DNA of 64,000 nucleotides from Mycobacterium botniense (GTDB taxonomy: Bacteria > Actinomycetota > Actinomycetes > Mycobacteriales > Mycobacteriaceae): NCBI RefSeq assembly GCF_010723305.1, contig NZ_BLKW01000004.1, positions 1,798,001-1,862,000 of the forward strand, read 5' to 3'. Positions 8,389-59,730 of this stretch are shown here, piece after piece. The notes under the pieces were generated by a model. It was given only the letters and a program-made list of their open reading frames with translations, did no database searches and was not told where the DNA came from. The translations under genes were made by a program, and so were the position numbers. Positions within the stretch are counted from its first letter, which is position 1. Every line of letters begins with the position of its first letter.

Positions 8389-8720
8389 GCCAGCCACAGT
8401 AGTGCCGATCACCCCGATCGCCGCCCAACTCCTGCGTTAGGGCGCCGGTTTGGCCGGTACCGACCGCGGTAGCCGAGACCAGCCGCGGACCGGGAGGACC
8501 GGCCAGCCGATCCGGGGACCCGGGGACGAGTCGGGCCGCGGCAACGCCGTCGCAGGTATTGTTTTCGGATAGCGCGCGAAAACCACCTGGTCGCCACCGA
8601 TCCCCGCCCGAGGAGTATTCAGTTGGGACGCGGTGTAACCGCCTCGTCAGCCGTTCCCTGGAACCGTCGCCGATCGGCCCGCCGATGCGTCTGTGCCAGA
8701 CTCACGTCGATGGCCGGTGC
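8389..8720. other. Divergent intergenic region, no gene seen
   Basis: This 332-base gap separates the SDR (minus strand) from the lipid kinase (plus strand). The kinase frame is open through much of it with possible starts at 8559 and 8685, but neither has a convincing ribosome site or homology, so I treat it as promoter DNA for both genes. No clear operator or hairpin was recognised. Confidence 0.5.
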
Positions 8721-9731
8721 ATGTATTTAGGCGTCATCGTCAACCCGCTCGCACGGAAAAACCGTGCCGCTGCAGGCGATCGCAGCGCCGGCCTGCGCCG
8801 CATCGTCGGCCGCTGGGGCGAGGTGCACGAAACCGCTTCCGTCGAGGAGCTTCGCGCAATTGTGCAGCAACTTCATCCGCGCGTCACCCATTTCGTCGCC
8901 GACGGCGGCGACGGGGCGTTGCACTGGCTGATCAATGAAATCCAGCGATGCATCGCCGATCCACGACGCTGGCCGGTATTTGTGCCCACCAACGGGGGCA
9001 GTATCAACGCGGTCGCGCGCAAGGCGCGGGTACGCGGACGCACCGATGCGATCCTGCGCGCCCTTACCGCCGCGGCGAAAACCGATCGGCCCCCACCCGA
9101 AGTACGCCTCGACACGCTGGAACTCGACGGTGAAACCGCGGACGGCGCTCCATTCCATCGGGTCTGCTTCGGGTTGGCGGCCGGCGGTGTGGGCAACCGG
9201 TTCTACGACAAGTACTACGACTACCACCATCACGGCCGCACATCCGCCGCCCGGGTAGTCGCTCGCACGTTCGGTGACTACCTCACCGCCACGCTCCTGC
9301 CCAGCCGCTCCGGCGGGTCCGGCTACGCGTCGCACCTGTTCGCTCCGACGCGCGCCCGCGTCGTCATCGACGGCGAAGAAGTCCCGACCCGGACACACAG
9401 GTTGCTGCACGCCGGTGCGATTGACCTTCAGATCGGGGGTGGGCTCAGACTGTTCCCCAAGGCGTGCGAACCTGGCGCGCTGCATTTCCAGGCCGGGGAC
9501 ACATCGCCGGCGAAAATCATCGCCCGTCTTCCCGCGGCGCTTACCGGCGGTACGCTGCGCGGTGATCGACTGCGCGACGTCAACGGCCGCGAGATGATCA
9601 TCGAGGCCCACGGCGAACCACTCGCGCCGATCATCGACGGCGAGCGGTTCGCCGGCATCGTCAGGCTTGTGGTACGCGCCGGACCACAGATCCGCGTCGG
9701 TCAGGTACGGGCGTCACCACCAGTCCCCTGA
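8721..9731 (+). CDS. Diacylglycerol/sphingosine kinase-family lipid kinase
   Basis: A 336-residue protein with the DAGK catalytic fold. Residues 1-13 (MYLGVIVNPLARK) form strand 1 with the NP turn. The nucleotide-binding GGDG is at about 62-65 (ADGGDGALHWL), and PTNGGSINAVAR (about 89-100) replaces the usual GTxND motif. The C-terminal beta-sandwich contains 'LHAGAIDLQIGGGLRLFP'. These enzymes phosphorylate a lipid hydroxyl using ATP. The altered GTxND loop suggests an unusual lipid acceptor (inference). The start MYLGV is chosen from the domain; ATGs at 8685 and 8559 are in frame. It is convergent with the large acyl ligase/reductase gene, 74 bases away. Confidence 0.78.
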   Translation: MYLGVIVNPLARKNRAAAGDRSAGLRRIVGRWGEVHETASVEELRAIVQQLHPRVTHFVADGGDGALHWLINEIQRCIADPRRWPVFVPTNGGSINAVARKARVRGRTDAILRALTAAAKTDRPPPEVRLDTLELDGETADGAPFHRVCFGLAAGGVGNRFYDKYYDYHHHGRTSAARVVARTFGDYLTATLLPSRSGGSGYASHLFAPTRARVVIDGEEVPTRTHRLLHAGAIDLQIGGGLRLFPKACEPGALHFQAGDTSPAKIIARLPAALTGGTLRGDRLRDVNGREMIIEAHGEPLAPIIDGERFAGIVRLVVRAGPQIRVGQVRASPPVP

Positions 9732-9805
9732 GCCGGTGCCGGCGGCGCTGCGCAGCCACGTTGTGCCCCAGCACCATTCGAGTTGGTCGCTGACTGTTGC
9801 GGTGG

Positions 9806-12800
9806 CTAGGCGCTGCACCGCTGCTCGGTGTCCACCTCGGTGATCAGACGCTCACGCCGCAGGAAGCGCACGAGATCGTCAACCGTGCGGGTCAGGGCCG
9901 GCTCGCGCAGACGCACCTTGGCCAGCTCACGCGCCCGCCGGTAGCACCTGTTGTCGTAGCGCTTGTGCTGCATGGCTGCGATCTTGTCGGCTGAGCGGGT
10001 GAGGAAATCGACCAGCGGATAAAGCGGATCACGCGGCGTGCACCGGCGGTTCACCTGCTCGGTGAAGGACGGGATGTCGTGGTAGGTGAAGCGGTAGCCG
10101 TAGCGTTCGGACAACACCCGGGTGATGTCCACGAGGTTGTAGTAGTCGTCGGCGGTCACATTGAAAACGGTGCCGTGCTCGGCCGGCAGGCCCATCAGCG
10201 CGACGATGTGCTCGGCGACCAGATTTGCCGGCAGCAGGCTGATCTGGTTGCGCGCGTCGACGGCCAGGCCGTGCTCGATCATGAACGCGGTCAGGCGCAC
10301 CAACACGTCGTCCTGGCTGCCACAACCCGTGCTGGTCGGCGAGATCAGCGAGGGCCGGTAGATCCGCACATCGAGCCCTTGCCGCTGTGCGGCCAGCGCC
10401 AGCTGTTCGGCGACCCACTTGGTCTGTGAGTAGCCGAAATCCAGGCCGCTCATCTCCTCGTTTGCATAGGACTCGCCGACCACCGGTTTGGTGCTCCAGC
10501 CGTAGATGAACGTGCTGGACACCAGGTGGAACGTCTTGCGGTGCGCGGTCATGGCCAGGCGCAACAGCTCCCATGTGCCGACCACGTTGGTAGGGCGCAG
10601 GGCATCGTAGGTGCGCACATAGTTGACCAGCGCGCCATTGTGGACGACGGTGTCGATGCTCTCCGCCAGCCGCTGAAACGTGTCCTCCCCGACACCTAGG
10701 TGCGGTTCGGCCAGGTCCCCGCAGACCACCCGCACCCGTGCCCGGACCTCGGCGTCCAGCGCCGGGGACCAGACACGTGCCTGCCGCAGCGCGGCGATGA
10801 TGCGGTCCAGGCCATGCGCCTCATCGGTGGCGCGCACCAGGGCGTGGATGGTGTAGGGGGTCCGCCCGAGCAGGTTGCTGAGCAGAAATGGTCCCAAAAA
10901 CCCGGTGGCGCCGGTCAGCAGAACCTCTCGCGGCGCCGCTTCGCGCGCCGGCGGCAGCGTCGGCAGGGGCAGGCGGGTGTCGGCGCGCATCCGGGTGGTC
11001 TCATAGGCTTCGTACTCGGCGGAAATCTGGGCCAACGACTGACGCAAGATGTCGAGCGGCTGGCCGGACCCATCACCGAAGTGCCGCATGAGCCGGAAGA
11101 ATTCGGCGACGGTCAGGCGCTGAAGTAGCCGCGTGTTGACCTCCCCGGCCAGCTCGCCCGCACCGTGCTCGTCCAGCAGGCCCTGCAGGTCGTTGCGGAG
11201 CTCGGCCAGGGCCAGCGAGTCGATGCCGAGATCGGCGAAGGAGCAGTCCTCCTGCCCGGTCAGGTCGTAACTCTCGATCACAAAGCGGAAACGTTCCAGC
11301 GGACCGGCATCAGCGCCCGGCGCCTCAGCGGGCTGGTGGGTGTAGCTCGCCACCACGGGCAGCTTGCCGTCCAGCCACAGTCGGCGGGTGTGCGCGCGGC
11401 GGATCTTTCCCGAGGTGGTCTTGGGAATGCTGCGCGGCGGCGCGAAAACCAGGGTCTGGGCCTCGATGTGACAGTGCCGACGGATCGCCCGCGCCAGCGC
11501 CCTGGCATCTGGCAGCGCATTGGTGTCCCGCACTTCGGCGACCACGACCAGCGCTTCCTGGTCGTCGCGCTCGACCGAGAACGCAGCGACGCAACCGGCA
11601 CGGACCTGCGCAGCTGTCCGTTCCACCACGGCCTCGATATCGGAGGGGTAGCAGTTGACACCGCGGACGATGATCAGGTCCTTGCTGCGGCCGCAGACGA
11701 ACAGTTCTCCTTCATACAGAAAGCCGAGATCTCCCGTACGCAGATAGGTGCGCACGTCATCACCGGCGATGCGGGCGCCGAAGGTGTCGGCGGTGAGCTC
11801 GGGACGGCGCCAATAGCCGCCCGCTTTGGACGCTCCGTCTACCCAGATCTCACCGATCCGGCCCTCGCCCAGGTCGTGTCGCGTCTGGGGATCGACAATC
11901 CGGACGACATTTCCCGCTATGGGCTTTCCGCAGCTCACCACCGGAGTCTGGTTGTTGTTTTCCGGCAAGGCCTTTTCCACCCGCACGAGGTTCTGCTCCA
12001 GCGCTCGCTTGTTCAGGGCCAGGGTCTGGCGCCCCCGCACGGACACGACCAGGGTGTTTTCGGCCAAACCATAAGCACCGGTTAACGCCTCGGGCCGCAG
12101 CCCGTAGGGGGCGAAGCGCTCCCGGAAACGGGTGAAGCTCTTGGCCCGCAGCGCCTCTGCTCCGACGACGATGCTGTCCAGGCTGCTCAGGTCAATGCCG
12201 GCCAGCTCAGCGGTGGGCAGCTTATCCTCGCGCAGGCAGTAGTCGAGGGCGAAGTTCGGCGCCGGTGTGTGGGTGGCGCGCACCTCGCTGATCAGCCGCA
12301 GCCAAGCCGATGGCCGCTGGAGGAAGTCGGCCGGCGACATCGCATGGGTGGTCCCGCCGTTGACCACCACGAACAGGTATGCCGAGATCAACCCCATGTC
12401 GTGGTGTTGCGGGAGCCAGCTGACCGCCACCTCGCCGCCGGTGAAGGCCGCGCGGTTGGCGATGACGTTGGCGTGGCTGACGATCACGCCTTTGGGGTCG
12501 CTGGTGGAACCCGAGGTGTACTGCAGGAAAAGGACCCGACCGGGCGTATCCGGCACCGGGCGCCCGCCGAAGTCCTGGGCGGCGTCGGTCGCGAACCAGG
12601 GCAGCTGCGGGGGCCGCTCGGCATCCGGCCAGGGCAGCGCGCCTTGGCGGTGGCCGAGCATCAGCCGGTAGTCGTACTCGAACTGCTTAGTGGACAGCAC
12701 CGCCGTGGCCCGGCAGTCCCGCGCGATGTAGCTGAGCTTGGCCAGGCCCGCATCGAAGGCCATCGGCAACGGCGGGCTCACCGGTACCGCGATCACCCCA

Positions 12801-52305: not shown

Positions 52306-53556
52306 TTATCCGCCGAGCAGGCCCTTAGCGATGTGGGTTACCTGCACCTCGTTGCTGCCGGCGTAGATCATCAGCGACTTCGCATCGCGGGCCAGCTGTT
52401 CCACCCGGTATTCGGCCATGTACCCGTTACCACCGAACAATTGCACGGCCTCCATCGCAACGTCAGTCGCCGCTTCCGACGAGTACAGCTTGATCGCTGA
52501 AGCTTCGGCCAGCGACGGCGGCTTTCCCGCCCGGATGCGCTCCAGAGTCTGAAAAACCATGTTCTGCACGTTGATCCGGGCGATTTCCATCCTGGCTAGC
52601 TTCAACTGGATCAATTGGAATTGACCGATGTTGCGGCCCCACAGGCTGCGGGTCTTGGCGTAATCGACACACAGCCGGTGACATTCGTTGATGATCCCCA
52701 ACGCCATGAGGGCCACGCCAAGCCGCTCGGCCAAGAAGTTCGCTCGCGCACTGTCGCGCCCGTCCCCTGCGGTGTGGTGCTCAGTCTCGCCGAGCAGCCG
52801 GTCACGCGTCAGCCGCACGTTGTCGAAGAACAACTCACCGGTGGGCGAAGACATCATGCCCATCTTCTTGAATGGCTTGCCCTGGGTCAGCCCCGGCATG
52901 CCGGCGTCCAGCACGAAAGCCAGCACCGGGCGGCTGCGCCAGTCAGCCGCCGGATCGCCGTCGTCGAGTTTGGCGTAAACCACCAACACATCGGCGTAGG
53001 GACCGTTGGTGATGAAGGTCTTCCGCCCATTCAGGATGTAGTCTTCACCGTCGCGCTGGACCCGGGTTTTCATGCCGCCAAAGGCATCTGAGCCCGAGTC
53101 CGGTTCAGTGATCGCCCAGGCCCCGATCTTGTCGAGTGTCACGAGCTGCGGCAGCCAGCGCTGCTTCTGCGCAAGCGTGCCCCGGGTCATGATCGTCGCC
53201 GCCGCCAAACCCAGGCTGACGCCGATGGTGCTGAGCAAACCGATGCTCACCCCGGCAAGTTCAGAGACCAGCACGGCCAGCGTCGATAGCTGTCCGCTGA
53301 GTTCCCCCAAACTCAGTGGAAAACGGTTATGCTCGATCGAGCGCTCACCGTCGGCGGCGCGCTGGCCCTCCAGCATCGCCTTGACCGCCTCAGCGGCCAG
53401 CACGTCCAGGCCGAACTCGCTGAACAGTTTGCGCGCGATGGGATATGGTGGCAGCTCCCCGGTTTCCAGCGCGTCCAGATGCGGACGAATCTCCTTGTCG
53501 ATGAATTTGCGAGCCGTGTCTCGCATGATCAGATCGGTGTCAGACCATTCGAACAT
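52306..53556 (-). CDS. fadE21: Acyl-CoA dehydrogenase FadE21
   Basis: A 416-residue acyl-CoA dehydrogenase with WAITEPDSGSDAFGG (~147-161), LNGRKTFITNGPYAD (~176-190), and near the C-terminus QLFGGNGYMAEY and YAGSNEVQVTHIAKGLLG. The usual catalytic Glu position reads YAGSNEV, so the base must come from here or elsewhere. It is the counterpart of Rv2789c at the same map position. It is the last gene of the ltp1 operon, providing the first oxidation step. Confidence 0.92.
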   Translation of the reverse strand: MFEWSDTDLIMRDTARKFIDKEIRPHLDALETGELPPYPIARKLFSEFGLDVLAAEAVKAMLEGQRAADGERSIEHNRFPLSLGELSGQLSTLAVLVSELAGVSIGLLSTIGVSLGLAAATIMTRGTLAQKQRWLPQLVTLDKIGAWAITEPDSGSDAFGGMKTRVQRDGEDYILNGRKTFITNGPYADVLVVYAKLDDGDPAADWRSRPVLAFVLDAGMPGLTQGKPFKKMGMMSSPTGELFFDNVRLTRDRLLGETEHHTAGDGRDSARANFLAERLGVALMALGIINECHRLCVDYAKTRSLWGRNIGQFQLIQLKLARMEIARINVQNMVFQTLERIRAGKPPSLAEASAIKLYSSEAATDVAMEAVQLFGGNGYMAEYRVEQLARDAKSLMIYAGSNEVQVTHIAKGLLGG

Positions 53557-53574
53557 CGTGAACTCCGGTCCCGC

Positions 53575-54444
53575 TCAGTGCGGCAGCCGCGCGGCGATGT
53601 CGTCAATCAGCCACGGACCGTCCGTCTCAATCGTCTCGACGTCATGCCAGCCCGACAGCCGTGAGATCGCGCCACCCTGAACCGCGTAGACCTGCCCGCT
53701 GACCGGGCACTTCTCGCTTGCCAGGTAAGCCACCAGCGGGGAGATGTTCGCCGGGCTGAACAGATCCAGCTCACCGTCCGCGGGCTCGGCCATCAACTCA
53801 CCCATACCGGGAGTGGCGAGCGTGAGCCGGGTGCGCGCGATCGGGGCGATCGCGTTGACCCGCACACCGTAGCGGTCCAGCTCCTGGGCGGCGATCAGCG
53901 TCAGCGCAGCGATCGCCGCCTTCGCCGCCCCGTAGTTGGCCTGCCCCGGGTTCGGCAGCGTCGTTCCAGACCCGGAGGCCGTATTGATCACCGCGGCGCT
54001 GGGTTGAGCCCCGGCCTTCGACTGCGCTTTCCAGTATGCGGCCGCGTGGCGCAACATCGCGAAGTGGCCTTTAAGGTGCACGGCGATCACCGCGTCCCAC
54101 TGTGATTCCGTCATACCGGCGATGTAGGCGTCTCGCAGAATACCGGCGTTGTTGACCAGCACATCCAGGCCGCCGAACTCGTCAACCGCCTGCTGTACCA
54201 GGGCTTTGGCGCTCTGCCAGTCCGCGACGTCGTCGGTGTTGGCGACTGCGGTGCCGCCGTTGGCGATGATCTCGTCGACCACATCGTGAGCAGGACCGGC
54301 GTCGCTGCCCTCGCCGGCGTTGTCGCCGCCGCGGTCGTTGACGACAACCTTGGCACCTTCCCTCGCGAACAGCAGCGCATGCTCGCGGCCGATGCCGCGC
54401 CCCGCGCCGGTGATCACCGCGACCCGCCCGTCCAATACACCCAT
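53575..54444 (-). CDS. SDR 3-hydroxyacyl-CoA dehydrogenase-like protein
   Basis: A 289-residue SDR: TGAGRGIGREHALLFAREGA (loop ~11-19), NDRGGDNAGEGSDAGPA (the insert typical of multifunctional-enzyme-type hydroxyacyl dehydrogenases), NNAGILRD and NYGAAKAAI. This pattern is that of the (3R)-hydroxyacyl-CoA dehydrogenase part of peroxisomal MFE-2 and mycobacterial Hsd4A (Rv3502c). Paired with the MaoC-type hydratase 29 bases upstream, it should catalyse the third beta-oxidation step. Confidence 0.87.
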   Translation of the reverse strand: MGVLDGRVAVITGAGRGIGREHALLFAREGAKVVVNDRGGDNAGEGSDAGPAHDVVDEIIANGGTAVANTDDVADWQSAKALVQQAVDEFGGLDVLVNNAGILRDAYIAGMTESQWDAVIAVHLKGHFAMLRHAAAYWKAQSKAGAQPSAAVINTASGSGTTLPNPGQANYGAAKAAIAALTLIAAQELDRYGVRVNAIAPIARTRLTLATPGMGELMAEPADGELDLFSPANISPLVAYLASEKCPVSGQVYAVQGGAISRLSGWHDVETIETDGPWLIDDIAARLPH

Positions 54445-54473
54445 GACGGCATCTCCTCGTCAACTTGTCGTCT

Positions 54474-55334
54474 TCACTCGGTGATTTCGGCCAGCCCATC
54501 GGTAATGACGAAGTCCTCACCCCTGGTGGTCTCGAATGCATAGCGGGTCGTACCGTTGTCGCGTAACACCGTCCAGATCCGGGTTTCCAGATCATCGCCG
54601 GGAAGCACTGGTGTGGAGAAACGCGCCGCAAGCCGCTTCAGCCGGGTGACGTCAGCGCCGTCGACCGCGGTCAGCAGCGCCCAGGAGGCGAATGCCATCG
54701 TACACAGCCCGTGCGCGATAATGCCCGGCAGACCAGCACTTTTGGCAACGTCCTCGTCGAGGTGAATCGGCATGGGGTCCCCCGAGGCGGCGGCGTAGCG
54801 GAAAGTCTGGTCAGTGTCGATGTGCTGCGCCACCGTAGCCGCCGGCGGCTGCATGCGCAGACCCTCGTCGAACTTGTGCCCGGGGCTGAGCGTGCCGACA
54901 GATTTGCCAACAGTGTAACCCCTGACGAATGCGGTCACATACTGCTGATTGACCAGTTCACCTGCCTCGGTGCGACATTCGAGCAGGATCGCCGCCCGGG
55001 TACCTTTCTCCAAGCCCTGGTAGCCGACCATCTTACCGCGCGACACCAGCCTGTCGCCCGGAAAAATCGGGCGATGAAAGTGGAAATCCTGCTCCCCGTG
55101 CACTATTCGTGGGATCAGCTCGACCGGCATCACATCGACCGCCGGTGTCAGCAGCGCTTCGAAGACCGGCACGATCGCGAATACCGGCGGTGCTACATCG
55201 CCGCGACGGTGCGCTTCGATGGGATCGTTAGTCGCAGCCGCATACTCCGCCAGGCGCTCTCGGGTCACTTCGAAACGCACCTCATCGGTCCAGCGGTCTA
55301 AGCCGCTGTCATCGAACGTCAGCTCATCATCCAT
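54474..55334 (-). CDS. MaoC-like (R)-specific enoyl-CoA hydratase
   Basis: A 286-residue double hot-dog protein. The second half carries the hydratase-2 motif, PMPIHLDEDVAKSAG then LPGIIAHGLCTMAFAS (~187-217), with catalytic Asp and His. It adds water to trans-2-enoyl-CoA to give (3R)-hydroxyacyl-CoA. ATG 55334 (MDDELTFDDS) is chosen over a frame-open extension. It is followed by the MFE-2-like SDR; together they replicate the two activities of eukaryotic MFE-2. Confidence 0.88.
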   Translation of the reverse strand: MDDELTFDDSGLDRWTDEVRFEVTRERLAEYAAATNDPIEAHRRGDVAPPVFAIVPVFEALLTPAVDVMPVELIPRIVHGEQDFHFHRPIFPGDRLVSRGKMVGYQGLEKGTRAAILLECRTEAGELVNQQYVTAFVRGYTVGKSVGTLSPGHKFDEGLRMQPPAATVAQHIDTDQTFRYAAASGDPMPIHLDEDVAKSAGLPGIIAHGLCTMAFASWALLTAVDGADVTRLKRLAARFSTPVLPGDDLETRIWTVLRDNGTTRYAFETTRGEDFVITDGLAEITE

Positions 55335-55347
55335 GCGGAAAACCTTG

Positions 55348-55788
55348 TCACGCTGAGGCCGATGCCAGCGCGTCAAGCTGCTTTAATGTCCTGTCAAGCT
55401 GTTTGGCGCCGTCTTTTTCCACCGCCTTGCCCAAAGCCCCCTTAATCAAGGCACCGTCGAAATCGCCGGTCACGGTGAACTTCGCTCCGCTGCCTGCCGG
55501 CTCGATGGTGAACGCGAATTCCGCCTTCACACCGGCCATACCGGTACCGCTCAGCACCAGGCTTCGCGGTGCGTCGACCGATTTAATGGTCCATTCGATC
55601 TTGTTGGCCATGCCTAACATCACGATCTTCGCGGTGAGCGTGGCCCCCTGCGTCAGGGTTTCAGGCGGCTGCTCCAGCCACTTGTCGTGAACCGTGAACC
55701 ACTTGTCCCAGTTTGGAAGGTCACACACCGTAGCCCACAGCGCATCGGGTCGGGCGGATAGCTCGCGAGTGGCTTCGATATGTCCCAT
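55348..55788 (-). CDS. SRPBCC (START-like) lipid-binding family protein
   Basis: A 146-residue helix-grip protein: MGHIEATRELSARPDALWATVCD at the start (first part MGHIEATRELSARPD) and a long C-terminal helix. The fold binds hydrophobic ligands, and some members are hydrolases or cyclases. In the operon between ltp1 and the hydratase it may hold or modify the acyl substrate (inference). Confidence 0.83.
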   Translation of the reverse strand: MGHIEATRELSARPDALWATVCDLPNWDKWFTVHDKWLEQPPETLTQGATLTAKIVMLGMANKIEWTIKSVDAPRSLVLSGTGMAGVKAEFAFTIEPAGSGAKFTVTGDFDGALIKGALGKAVEKDGAKQLDRTLKQLDALASASA

Positions 55789-55809
55789 ACGCCGCTCTCC
55801 TCGCCGCGC

Positions 55810-57000
55810 TCAGCGTTCAGCCCGCTGGTAGGCGGTGACCACCGCGGCACCGCCGAGCCCGATATTGTGCTGCAACGCCGCTGTCACATTCTCGACCTGG
55901 CGCTGGTCCGCTTCACCGCGCAGCTGCCAGGTCAGCTCGGCGCATTGAGCGAGCCCGGTGGCGCCCAGCGGGTGCCCTTTGGAGATCAGGCCGCCCGACG
56001 GGTTGACCACCCAGCGCCCGCCGTAGGTGGTGTCACCGTCGTCGATCAGCTTGGGCGCCTCACCCGGCGCGCACAACCCGAGCGCTTCGTAGAGCAGCAG
56101 CTCGTTGGCAGAGAAGCAGTCGTGCAGTTCGATCACCTGGAAGTCTTCGGGGGCAAGACCAGATTGCTCGTAGACACTTTGTGCCGCACGGACATTCATG
56201 TGGTAGCCGATGAGCGCCTTGCAGCTGCCGTCGAATGTGTCCTCGAAGTCGGTCGTCATCGCTTGGCCGACGATCTCCACCGCCCGGTCGGCCAACCCGT
56301 GGCTGTCGACGAAAGCTTCGGAGGCCAGGATCGCCGCGCCCGAACCGTCTGATGTCGGCGAACACTGCAGTTTGGTCAGCGGTTCGTAGATCATCCGAGA
56401 AGCCAAGATGTCCTCCAGCGTGTAGGACTCCTGGAACTGGGCGTATGGGTTGTTCACCGAATGCTTGTGGTTCTTGTAACCGATCTTGGCGAAATGCTCC
56501 GGGGTGCTGCCGTATTGCTTCATGTGCTCGCGGCCGGCAGCGCCGAACATCCACGGCGCCGGCGGCAATGCCACCTCCGAGAGTTCGGCCATCGCCTGGA
56601 TGTGCTTGTCCATCGGCTGGGTGCGATCGTCGTACATCGACCCCAGCGAGCCCGGTTTCATCTTCTCGAAGCCAAGCGCTATGGTGCAGTCAGCCAACCC
56701 TCCGCGAATCGCTTGTGCCGCAAGGAATAGCGCAGTCGAGCCAGTCGAGCAGTTGTTGTTGACGTTGACGACCGGAATTCCCGTCATGCCCAGTTCGTAC
56801 AGCGCCCGCTGCCCTGACGTCGACTCGCCGTAAACATAGCCGACGTAGCCTTGTTCGACCTCGCGGTAGTCGATGCCCGCGTCGGCCAGCGCCCTGGTTC
56901 CGGACTCCCTGGCCATCTCCGGGTAGTCCCAGCCCTCGCGACGACCGGGTTTCTCGAATTTCGTCATGCCGACACCGACGACATAAACCTTGTTTGACAT
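55810..57000 (-). CDS. ltp1: Lipid-transfer thiolase Ltp1
   Basis: A 396-residue thiolase of the SCP-x type. The nucleophile Cys84 is in [11 protein letters not shown] (81-91), the second active-site region is [13 protein letters not shown] (~286-298), and the His is in [14 protein letters not shown] (~349-362). It corresponds to Rv2790c (401). It cleaves 3-ketoacyl-CoA, often branched or sterol side chains. GGAGG precedes the ATG. It is the first gene of a five-gene operon (ltp1, SRPBCC, MaoC, SDR, fadE21) and has a TetR-like operator 74 bases upstream. Confidence 0.93.
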
Positions 57001-57384
57001 CGCATTCCTCCCGGTCCGTCACTCACCGGTACCGAAACCACCGGCTGGCAAATCTCTAAGCCCGGTGATAAACCATACAGGTCTGATTGTATCTTGACTA
57101 GCCTGCACAGCAGGGCACAGACACCTCGGCACAGCCGGCGGCCGCCCGCCGACCGCGATGCGCCGCTGATCGCGCCGGGCGCCGCGGGCGTTCCCGTCTG
57201 CTGGTTGGGGCCTCTGACGGCCAGGGGAGATCGGGCCGCCTGCGTCGCTCACCCCGACCGTGGCGGGTGGCTCAGCGGCCGTCGATACGCGCCGGCATCG
57301 CCCGGGTCCCTGGCGGGCCCGGCGGCACAACATACCCGGCAGTGTGTATCTTGTGCAGCGCTGATCCGGTGGGCAGGATGGACC
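57001..57384. other. Divergent region between ltp1 and PE-PPE esterase
   Basis: 384 bases. The esterase frame is open through most of it from 57094, but the encoded residues are Arg/Pro-rich without a domain, and the real start is supported at 57385. It holds the inverted repeat at 57074-57093; beyond that nothing was recognised. Confidence 0.5.
57074..57093. promoter_or_regulatory. Inverted repeat, candidate TetR operator upstream of ltp1
   Basis: CATACA-N8-TGTATC, lying between ltp1 and the divergent esterase gene. Its sequence is very similar to the repeat in front of the TetR gene at 59711-59730: both read CATACA, then an 8-base spacer ending GAT, then TGTAT. A TTGACT (57095-57100) directly beside it could be the -35 of the esterase gene. 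Confidence 0.65.
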
Positions 57385-59013
57385 GTGTTGGTCGGCCCGC
57401 TGACTCGCGCGACGCACCCCAGACTCCAGATGTGGGGCCCGGTGGCGGTGGCGATTGTCAGCACCGCGCTGATCGGATGGTCGCCGACGATACCGTCGGC
57501 GCTGGGGGCCGGGGCGGACGCGGTGAGCGCGGACACCGTGTTACTGGCCGGCGGCACGGCATTGATCATGGGGGGCACCGGGCCGTGCTGCACACAGCCA
57601 GAGCCACCGCCGAGCCCCTCCTACGTCGCGGCCGTTGACCGGCTCTACGTCAGCCCCCACTTTCCGGGATACACCGTGGAGGGCCTGTACACGCCCGAAC
57701 AGTTTCACCCGTTTACCGGGCTGACCAGCGCAACCTTCGACCAGTCGGTCAGTGCGGGCGCCAGCGACCTGAACACCGCCATCATGCAGCAATTCGCCGC
57801 GGGAAATAACGCCGTCGTTTTGGGGATCTCCCAAAGCGCTACGGTCGAGACCCTGGAGCTGGAACACCTGGCCGCCCTGCCTGCCGATGCCCGGCCGGGT
57901 TCAGACCAACTGTCTTTCGTGCTGCTCGGTGATGGCAACAACCCCGACGGCGGCTTCCTCGCGCGCTTCCCCGGACTGGACATCACGTCCATCGGTTTGA
58001 CCTTCTCTGGTGCCACCCCCGACGATGTTTACCCAACCGCCGTCTACTCACTCGAATACGACGGCTGGGCCGACTTCCCGCGGTACCCGATCGATATCCT
58101 GGCGGACCTCAACGCCTTTGCGGGCATGGCTTTTGTGCACGGCTTATATCCGGATCTCACGTCCACCCAACTTGCCACGGCTGTCGCAGTGCCGACGGAG
58201 GGACCCACCCTCACCACCTACGAGCTGATTCCCACCGAAAACCTGCCGCTGTTGGATCCGGTGCGTGACATCCCCATCGGAGGCAACGCGCTCGCCGACC
58301 TGCTGCAGCCCGACCTCAGCGTGATCGTCAACCTGGGCTACGGCAACCCCGACTACGGCTGGTCGACCGGCCCGGCGAATGTGGCCACTCCGGCCGGGCT
58401 GTTCCCGCCCCTCAACGACATCGCAGAGGCCATAGCGCTGCTGATGCCGGACACCGTGCGGGGCGTCGACAATGCACTCGCCGCGGTCGGTTTGCCGCCG
58501 CTGCCGAACCTGCCGGTGCCCTCGTTCCTGCCGGATCCGGTGAACTTCTCGCTGCCGAGCTGGCCGGCCGCTTTGACCATGACCGATACACTTGCCGTTT
58601 CGCCGCGCGTCGGCGCTGTCATCGACGGCGCGCTGAACGAGCTGGATTCTGTGCTCAATACCGCCATCAACGACGACATCGATCCCGTCATTCAGGGGGC
58701 CGTTTATGCCGTCGGTGATCCGCTTCGGGCTGCCGCCACTGCTCTCGGCGCTCCGGAGCGGATCACCAACGCCATCTACGTCGGCGAGCAAGCATTACCC
58801 AGTGTTCTTGAGGGGCCCGGTACTTTCGTCACCAATGACGTGCACTTCCTGGTCACCGCGATCGAGGATTTGGCTGCCGGCAACCTCAGCGGGTTCGGTC
58901 AGGAGCTCCAGCTGATCCCCGCGGCCGATATCACCCTGGCGGTGATGGTGGGGGCTTTACTGCCCGCTTTGGCGCTGGAGGATATCCTCGCCGGCATTCC
59001 GTTCAACATCTGA
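57385..59013 (+). CDS. Exported PE-PPE-domain esterase (alpha/beta hydrolase)
   Basis: A 542-residue protein. The GTG at 57385 has AGGA six bases upstream, followed by an N-terminal signal/anchor (about residues 16-32, MWGPVAVAIVSTALIGW); an ATG at 57430 is the alternative. Residues ~85-310 are the PE-PPE domain, a serine hydrolase with the elbow GISQSATV (about 154-161) in place of the usual GxSxG. The C-terminal ~200 residues are Pro/Leu/Asp-rich and unassigned. Mycobacterial proteins with this domain and no PE or PPE head (for example Chp1/Chp2) act as acyltransferases or esterases on trehalose lipids outside the membrane; the exact activity here is unknown. Its last 57 bases overlap the TetR gene on the other strand. 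Confidence 0.85.
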   Translation: MLVGPLTRATHPRLQMWGPVAVAIVSTALIGWSPTIPSALGAGADAVSADTVLLAGGTALIMGGTGPCCTQPEPPPSPSYVAAVDRLYVSPHFPGYTVEGLYTPEQFHPFTGLTSATFDQSVSAGASDLNTAIMQQFAAGNNAVVLGISQSATVETLELEHLAALPADARPGSDQLSFVLLGDGNNPDGGFLARFPGLDITSIGLTFSGATPDDVYPTAVYSLEYDGWADFPRYPIDILADLNAFAGMAFVHGLYPDLTSTQLATAVAVPTEGPTLTTYELIPTENLPLLDPVRDIPIGGNALADLLQPDLSVIVNLGYGNPDYGWSTGPANVATPAGLFPPLNDIAEAIALLMPDTVRGVDNALAAVGLPPLPNLPVPSFLPDPVNFSLPSWPAALTMTDTLAVSPRVGAVIDGALNELDSVLNTAINDDIDPVIQGAVYAVGDPLRAAATALGAPERITNAIYVGEQALPSVLEGPGTFVTNDVHFLVTAIEDLAAGNLSGFGQELQLIPAADITLAVMVGALLPALALEDILAGIPFNI

Positions 59014-59658
59014 CCCGCCGTCCAGCGATGCGGGCGGCAGCAGGCCGGTCATGATGGGGCGTAGGTGCACGCCGGCACGCTCCCATCGCCGCCGGGCACG
59101 GCGGGTATCGCGATCGACGAAGCTCGCGACCAGAATTCCGCGCAACGCGTCCATTGCGGTATAGACGGCGTTGCGGAGTTCTTTCTGCGCGGGGTGCTTT
59201 GGCAGCAACTGAGCGATAGCGGCGACCAAAGTGCTGTTGACAACGGGTTCGACCCGCTCGATTTGACGCGCCAGCACCGGATTGGTGCGGGCGGCGACCC
59301 AAAGCTCCATACTGGCAACGAACATCGGCCCCTGATGCGCGTCCCAGAGAAAATCGAGCACCATCGCCACCGGGTCGGCGCTCGCTTGGGCGCGGCTGAG
59401 TTCACGGATTGCCGCCTGGGCGCGCTGTTGGGCCAGATGTTCGATGGCCGCCACCACCAGATCTTCTTTCGACCGGAAATGGTGGATCTGAGCGCCCCGG
59501 GTCAGTCCCGCCAGCTCCGCCACCCGCGGCGTGGTCGTCTTCGCGTACCCGTAGGTGACCAGGCATTCGATGGTGGCGTCGAGCAAACGCGCGCGCGTCG
59601 CGGCGCTCCGCTCTGCCTGCGTACGCCGCGCCCCCTGGCCGTCTGCGCTCGTCGGCAC
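58957..59658 (-). CDS. TetR-family transcriptional regulator
   Basis: A 233-residue TetR regulator. The N-terminal helix-turn-helix is YGYAKTTTPRVAELAGLTRG (~35-54) followed by IHHFRSKEDLV; the rest is a helical ligand-binding domain. The GTG at 59658 has AAGGAG eight bases upstream; a TTG at 59709 would add 17 basic residues. An inverted repeat (59711-59730) about 53 bases upstream is shared with the ltp1 promoter, so it likely represses itself and the ltp1 operon, with an acyl-CoA as inducer (inference). Tail-to-tail overlap with the esterase gene. Confidence 0.88.
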   Translation of the reverse strand: MPTSADGQGARRTQAERSAATRARLLDATIECLVTYGYAKTTTPRVAELAGLTRGAQIHHFRSKEDLVVAAIEHLAQQRAQAAIRELSRAQASADPVAMVLDFLWDAHQGPMFVASMELWVAARTNPVLARQIERVEPVVNSTLVAAIAQLLPKHPAQKELRNAVYTAMDALRGILVASFVDRDTRRARRRWERAGVHLRPIMTGLLPPASLDGGSDVERNAGEDILQRQSGQ

Positions 59659-59710
59659 CGCTGCCCGCTCCTTGCCTCTCCGCCTCGACTGGGCCCGATG
59701 TGCGCTCAAG

Positions 59711-59730
59711 CATACATGCTCGATTGTATG
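59711..59730. promoter_or_regulatory. Inverted repeat, candidate TetR autoregulatory operator
   Basis: CATACA-N8-TGTATG is a perfect inverted repeat (59711-59716 with 59725-59730) directly upstream of the TetR gene. It matches 57074-57093 in both arms and in the GAT before the right arm. The 20-base size is typical for TetR dimers. Confidence 0.7.

Follow-up and report, generated by a model that had tools for sequence, protein, structure and literature searches.

The peroxisomal beta-oxidation pathway of the MFE-2/SCPx type handles branched and sterol-side-chain acyl-coenzyme A (acyl-CoA) substrates. Among bacterial repressors of the TetR family, KstR controls a large regulon of lipid-degradation genes through the motif TnnAACnnGTTnnA (PMC1995591), and BkaR (Rv2506/MSMEG_4718), the repressor of a branched-chain keto-acid operon, is autoregulated, governs a small regulon that includes an adjacent acyl-CoA catabolic operon, and recognizes a palindromic operator with the motif GTTA(N)T(N4)A(N)TAAC (PMC3920632). 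Here we analyzed a 64,000-nucleotide stretch of the 4.3 Mb genome of Mycobacterium botniense (contig NZ_BLKW01000004.1, positions 1,798,001 to 1,862,000; hereafter the window), in which a five-gene operon beginning with ltp1 lies near a TetR-family gene, across an esterase gene. We provisionally named the product of the TetR gene LtpR. Comparisons of sequence suggest that this local TetR protein represses the ltp1 operon and probably also the esterase gene and itself, a reading to which we assign a probability of roughly 0.8.

As in the BkaR system, the regulator is a TetR protein with an adjacent acyl-CoA catabolic operon, a small regulon and a palindromic operator, which is predicted in our case (PMC3920632). 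However, the palindrome at this locus, ATAC-N10-GTAT, differs by eye from the BkaR motif, and the enzymes also differ. Like KstR, LtpR is predicted to control lipid-degradation genes, whereas its palindrome is unlike TnnAACnnGTTnnA and its regulon would be local rather than large (PMC1995591), in agreement with an earlier note on this DNA that had not recognized the motif as that of KstR. In addition, the NCBIfam KstR equivalog NF033703 gave LtpR 25.4 bits against a cut-off of 280. The KstR2 motif presumably also looks different from these sites. EthR2/Rv0078 is a less specific comparison, as many TetR structures score as well. The enzymes themselves recall the peroxisomal pathway, with its hydratase 2, MFE-2-type dehydrogenase and SCP2-thiolase type 1 among their best Protein Data Bank (PDB) matches; unlike in peroxisomes, they are separate bacterial proteins, an acyl-CoA dehydrogenase stands in place of an oxidase, and control by a TetR protein is predicted. 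Among the matches listed in the open-access literature, with subscription papers lying outside it, there was no published work on this regulator-operator pair. The motif table of PMC4482099 gives 30 regulators by Rv number, and ltp1 is not mentioned in the available text of that paper. The named database entries among 120 listed TetR relatives carried generic names only. The pair is probably one more local TetR repressor and operator of familiar design, with an interesting target pathway. An unstudied regulator thereby gains a predicted operator and a three-promoter regulon, and the substrate of Ltp1 and FadE21 becomes approachable: the compound that triggers release would be expected to be the substrate itself or an intermediate.

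The ltpR gene occupies positions 58957..59658 of the minus strand, with a GTG start chosen by alignment with relatives, and lies about 2.0 kb beyond the start of ltp1 with the PE-PPE-domain hydrolase between them, as had been described. Its product possesses the TetR helix-turn-helix (PF00440, E 6.8e-13; 48.6 bits against a cut-off of 24), its predicted structure is a TetR fold, and its recognition region, TRGAQ-HHF, is nearly invariant among close TetRs. The two inverted repeats given in the earlier note were both found in the sequence, and a third site, which that note had not listed, was added to them. O1 (57074..57093), the predicted operator in the ltp1 promoter, reads CATACAGGTCTGATTGTATC (GATACAATCAGACCTGTATG on the ltp1 strand) and has one mismatch to CATACA-N8-TGTATG. 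O3 (59711..59730; CATACATGCTCGATTGTATG), in the tetR promoter, is a perfect CATACA-N8-TGTATG. The additional site, O2 (57331..57350; CATACCCGGCAGTGTGTATC), is a predicted operator 34 bp before the likely esterase start and has two mismatches to the full palindrome and one to the core. With a matrix of 22 sites, of which O1 is itself a member, O1, O2 and O3 scored 31.1, 18.0 and 21.0, respectively. In all three sites, one arm overlaps a -10-like hexamer: TATGGT for ltp1 (57072..57077, minus strand), TATCTT for the esterase promoter (57347-57352) and TATGCT for tetR (59709-59714, minus strand). A weak -35 hexamer, TAGTCA (57095-57100, minus strand), lies 17 bp upstream of the ltp1 -10 hexamer, and O1 fills the spacer between them, the classic position of a repressor.

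Searching named genomes with the TetR protein identified 18 relatives in Mycobacterium, Mycolicibacter and Mycolicibacillus. The site was present before ltp1, beginning 45-84 bp upstream of its start, in all 15 named loci that have both TetR and Ltp1 (L016-L030), so the conservation in orthologous ltp1 promoters that the earlier note had expected was observed. In the other three, a metagenome assembly (L032) without ltp1, maoC and the SDR gene retained the site before the SRPBCC gene, and in two loci (L031 and L033) TetR was present but the ltp1 operon was not. Where contigs reached, the genes largely kept the order pptT-truB-tetR-(variable gene)-ltp1-SRPBCC-maoC-SDR-fadE21-sirR.

The comparison was then extended to 148 genomes of the genus, in which a TetR match (E up to 1e-35) was found in 34 and an Ltp1 match (E up to 1e-170) in 133. 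The 15 named sites served to build a weight matrix, with which 300 bp of upstream and 30 bp of coding sequence were scored for all 150 Ltp1 copies listed. Among the 27 TetR-linked copies, which come from 26 genomes, 22 scored at least 10 (10.1-38.6), and none of the 123 copies without a linked TetR did so (0/22 unlinked copies in TetR-bearing genomes, best 3.1; 0/101 copies in TetR-free genomes, best 9.2). Site and TetR linkage were concordant in 145 of the 150 copies (22 with both, 123 with neither; Fisher p 6e-22, on rows related by descent), and therefore the site appears to go with TetR linkage rather than with ltp1 as such. Within single genomes, G117 carries two ltp1 copies around its TetR gene; a site precedes one of them but not the copy adjacent to truB. 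Independently of the matrix, the pattern RATRCANTCNNNNNKGTATG was found in 14/148 genomes and its reversed control in 2/148; it stood before a TetR-linked ltp1 in 10 genomes and elsewhere in 4 (G031, G034, G043 and G103). A TetR at least 71% identical occurred in 10 genomes, nine of which contained RATRCANTCNNNNNKGTATG; the tenth, G117, contained a variant.

Several observations weigh against this reading. The cut-off of 10 was chosen with the scores already in view, the lowest positive being 10.1 and the highest negative 9.2; 5 of the 22 positives have 120 bp of upstream DNA in common with a locus used for training; and conservation within the 22 sites is partly a matter of construction, the sites having been selected by the matrix. 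In a tree of 58 Ltp1 rows (rooted for drawing only), the linked label needed 3 changes, with unlinked rows placed among linked ones, and the independent contrasts numbered one on supported branches, in the expected direction, and three on all branches. With the cut-off chosen in this way and so few contrasts among related sequences, the counts overstate significance, and the strength of the association rests less on the p value than on how long the site has been conserved while the promoters around it diverged. Five of the 27 linked copies fell below the cut-off: four (G092, G088, G050 and G147) scored 6.4-6.8, with TetRs only 46-49% identical and the best match 186-220 bp upstream, and the fifth, in G076 (TetR 66-68% identical), scored 1.1 and has only a decayed site, the short-locus copy of the same genome having none. 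G092 also has another Ltp1 copy with a site scoring 15.6, though its nearest TetR is only 38-39% identical. In 8 of the 34 TetR-bearing genomes (G008, G028, G056, G084, G087, G098, G109 and G145), no Ltp1 lies near TetR; the TetR start carries a site in two of them, G056 and G084 (22.2 and 19.2), and no site was found before the TetR gene of G087 and G109, where the TetR is 66% identical and has a PE-PPE neighbor. Furthermore, a site scoring at least 12 was found in the tetR promoter of only 19 of 51 relatives, a score that shuffled sequence also passed in 1/51 (L020, 16.5); other tetR promoters show diverged inverted repeats by eye. Autoregulation across species is thus only partly supported by these promoters. 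Finally, the ltp1 promoter of the window itself departs from the pattern of its relatives: among 22 aligned linked ltp1 promoters, TTG occurs at -35 in 19, 17-18 bp from the -10, and TATGTT at -10 in 21, and the window has TAGTCA and TATGGT instead.

Within the genome, the rarity of the pattern depended on how strictly it was matched. The exact core, ATACA-N8-TGTAT, occurred in only 2 places in 4.3 Mb, both in this locus, with no random scatter. The earlier note had also proposed a scan allowing one mismatch, and for the core this gave no excess, with 11 places against 14 for the control, with 7 of the 8 outside the locus lying in crudely called open reading frames (ORFs) and matrix scores there of -12 to 10.6. 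Similarly, with at most 2 mismatches the palindrome was found 27 times genome-wide and its reversed control 18 times, and with at most 3 mismatches the palindrome matched 12 times in the window against 7.27 expected, a number reached by 9 of 100 shuffles, so that the enrichment was not significant. A matrix score of 12 was reached 8 times in 3 Mb of random sequence with a similar composition. Loose matching is therefore uninformative, and the two sites are distinct only by their exact core and location, which leaves conservation as the real support. A wider regulon in this genome was rejected, because the palindrome with mismatches showed little or no excess over the control. If the site is an operator, the predicted regulon is local, and the small TetR-operator regulon that the earlier note had put forward is supported by the confinement of the exact core to this locus within the genome, by the site before ltp1 in the 15 named relatives and by its association with TetR linkage among the 150 copies.

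We infer binding, repression, ligand and substrate from the genes, the sites, their promoter position and the site-TetR linkage. A TetR dimer would bind the palindrome, whose core is ATAC-N10-GTAT and whose fullest form, AAAGATAC-N10-GTATGTTT, is present with its flanks in 8 of the 22 sites. Bound there, it would fill the -35/-10 spacer of the ltp1 promoter and block RNA polymerase. Release would be brought about by a ligand derived from a lipid, the most plausible being the CoA thioester of the substrate or of an intermediate, and the esterase, the enzymes and the repressor would then be switched on together.

The conserved block might instead be nothing other than the -35 and -10 elements of the ltp1 promoter, the palindrome being incidental and the TetR a bystander. 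The block is located where a promoter must be, and one of its arms overlaps the -10-like TATGTT. However, A2, C5, C9 and G16-G20 are invariant in the 22 sites, themselves picked by the matrix, and A2 and C5 of the left arm together with C9 fall in the spacer rather than in the -10. Moreover, the 123 unlinked Ltp1 copies also need a promoter, yet they have no such block. We consequently disfavor this explanation and regard it as very improbable. An operator bound by some other regulator, with the neighboring TetR linked for other reasons, has slightly more to recommend it, since association is not binding, the independent contrasts are only one to three, and some TetRs with a conserved helix-turn-helix have no site at their own promoter. 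Yet the concordance of 145/150 extends to genomes that carry a further copy of ltp1 not linked to TetR, a perfect palindrome lies in the tetR promoter of the window itself, and the variants of the site go with subgroups of TetR. In particular, Pro after TTT in the helix-turn-helix mostly accompanies T at site position 8, and Ala, Gln or His mostly accompanies A, with G117 and the GATACGTGC sites as exceptions; the pattern is small and confounded by descent. We consider a different regulator improbable.

Repression of the operon by LtpR, the reading we prefer, could also form part of the complete scheme that the earlier note had proposed, in which the exported hydrolase cuts an external ester, the acid is imported and degraded by the operon, and its acyl-CoA releases the TetR. 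The esterase has its own predicted site, O2; a PE-PPE protein, PE16, is an esterase (PMC3562317); and PE-PPE hydrolases recur near TetR, both between tetR and ltp1 in three named relatives (L016, L017 and L027) and in G022, G121, G043, G009, G087 and G109, standing three in tandem in L017 and G022. In addition, some relatives add genes after FadE21, which in L215 (G141) were family-tested as an alpha/beta hydrolase, an AMP-binding acyl-CoA ligase and an SDR, and in L207, L208, L209 and L210 are ORFs of comparable size and order; MCE-type (MlaD) lipid-import proteins lie near the L208 and L217 loci, the former also with an aldehyde dehydrogenase nearby. Nevertheless, neither a ligase nor an importer is among the genes of this operon, and in 9 of the 15 named relatives tetR and ltp1 are direct neighbors. 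In addition, no convincing site accompanies any of the seven other PE-PPE paralogues in this genome (the best one nearby, at 11.5, falls within an ORF), and the TetR fold gives no indication of the ligand. The varied surroundings fit a lipid-ester catabolic island, and because the neighboring parts vary among relatives, the exported-esterase step is no fixed part of it. The scheme as a whole seems to us rather unlikely. An AraC regulator adjoins TetR in L208; as a possible partner here it was rejected, the one match to that domain in this genome lying far from the locus.

The ltp1 operon (52306-57000) consists of five co-directional minus-strand genes, separated by gaps of 18, 29, 16 and 21 bp and encoding, in the order of transcription, Ltp1, an SRPBCC protein, a MaoC hydratase, an SDR and FadE21, the set that had been named before and that family profiles bore out. 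Ltp1 (55810..57000), an SCP2-thiolase type 1, reached 707.5 bits with NCBIfam PRK08256 (cut-off 436) and aligned over residues 2-392 with a solved enzyme of that type (PDB 6hsj, E 2.4e-175); it has Cys84, His293 and GHPLGATG at 342, which we take to be the thiolase catalytic residues. The MaoC-like enoyl-CoA hydratase 2 (54474..55331; PF01575, 1.4e-28, with a weak MFE-2 hydratase N domain) had peroxisomal enoyl-CoA hydratase 2 as its best PDB sequence match (7mku, E 4.6e-22), and the MFE-2-like SDR (53575..54444; NCBIfam PRK07791, 442.6 bits, cut-off 373) had an MFE-2-type (3R)-hydroxyacyl-CoA dehydrogenase (2et6, E 1.4e-87). The last gene (52306..53556) encodes the FadE21-like acyl-CoA dehydrogenase (PF00441, 9.5e-44; PF02770, 1.1e-23). 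By the best PDB matches of Ltp1, SDR and MaoC, the operon resembles peroxisomal MFE-2/SCPx beta-oxidation, and this enzyme set suggests bulky or alpha-methyl-branched acyl-CoAs as its substrates. The earlier description of the module as self-contained was too strong for an operon without a CoA ligase or a transporter. The SRPBCC-fold protein (55348..55788; PF10604, 1.8e-17) exceeded the cut-off of 100 for NCBIfam NF047960, named 'type II toxin-antitoxin system Rv0910 family toxin', at 165.6 bits. Within a conserved beta-oxidation operon, where no antitoxin partner is evident, this label may be misleading, and a lipid- or acyl-binding role seems as likely as a toxin role.

The esterase gene (57385..59013, plus strand) lies divergent from the operon and encodes a PE-PPE-domain serine hydrolase (PF08237, 5e-79), which is probably exported. 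The GxSxG/S motif described for such hydrolases (PMC3037379) is present in it as GISQS at codon 147. Its start is most likely at 57385, because codon bias is absent from the ORF stretch 57094-57384 (GC at the three codon positions 0.72/0.73/0.75, against 0.67/0.49/0.81 in the body) and the proteins of relatives begin near the equivalent position. Given this start, O1 would be mainly the site of ltp1; the earlier note had assigned it to both promoters, which stands mainly for ltp1, the esterase having its own predicted site, O2. The esterase and TetR frames overlap tail to tail by 57 bp (58957-59013), so their transcripts could interfere. In three of the 15 named relatives (L023, L025 and L029), the tetR-ltp1 gap gave no PE-PPE match. 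In L023, it contains a divergent gene for an FAD/NAD(P)-dependent oxidoreductase that weakly resembles flavin monooxygenases (8663-10315), L025 has an ORF with an N-terminus similar to it, and the gap of L029 is of like size.

Beyond the genus, in three genomes from other genera of the family (G203, G342 and G272), a TetR 51-62% identical adjoins an Ltp1 81-85% identical, and a related site lies between the two. In another family, seven TetRs 55-57% identical (L269-L275) had no Ltp1 and no site within 1.5 kb. As a tentative proposal, somewhat short of an even chance in our estimation, an unnamed TetR subfamily may have been kept with the peroxisomal-type MFE-2/SCPx operon across the genera of one family and may sense a bulky or branched acyl-CoA, its operator drifting with the protein; both would have been lost together in a large Mycobacterium clade, in which the short ltp1(-fadE21) loci would be remnants of the repressor-controlled pathway. 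In the tuberculosis locus, we take Rv2789c to be fadE21, Rv2788 to be sirR and the ORFs between ltp1 and truB to be transposase genes. Loss of the regulator from that locus is plausible. Its ordered markers include Rv2786c (ribF), Rv2790c (ltp1) and Rv2793c (truB) (PMC2447356).

In G028, G145 and G008, the TetR gene stands alone between truB and sirR, with a matrix match between the TetR and sirR genes (L238 6470-6489, 14.2; L239 6140-6159, 17.6; L240 5982-6001, 12.0), perhaps a remnant of a lost ltp1 promoter. Two tandem TetR paralogues were seen upstream of ltp1 in L044, L045, L053, L054 and L055 (G009, G043, G053, G018 and G004), with the site variant GATACGTKC before ltp1. A similar palindrome also lies at the start of TetRs that are only 53-56% identical and have no ltp1 next to them (L223 8855-8874, 22.2; L224 9538-9557, 19.2; L283 1954-1973, 25.5), and the half-site may thus be common to a wider TetR subfamily.

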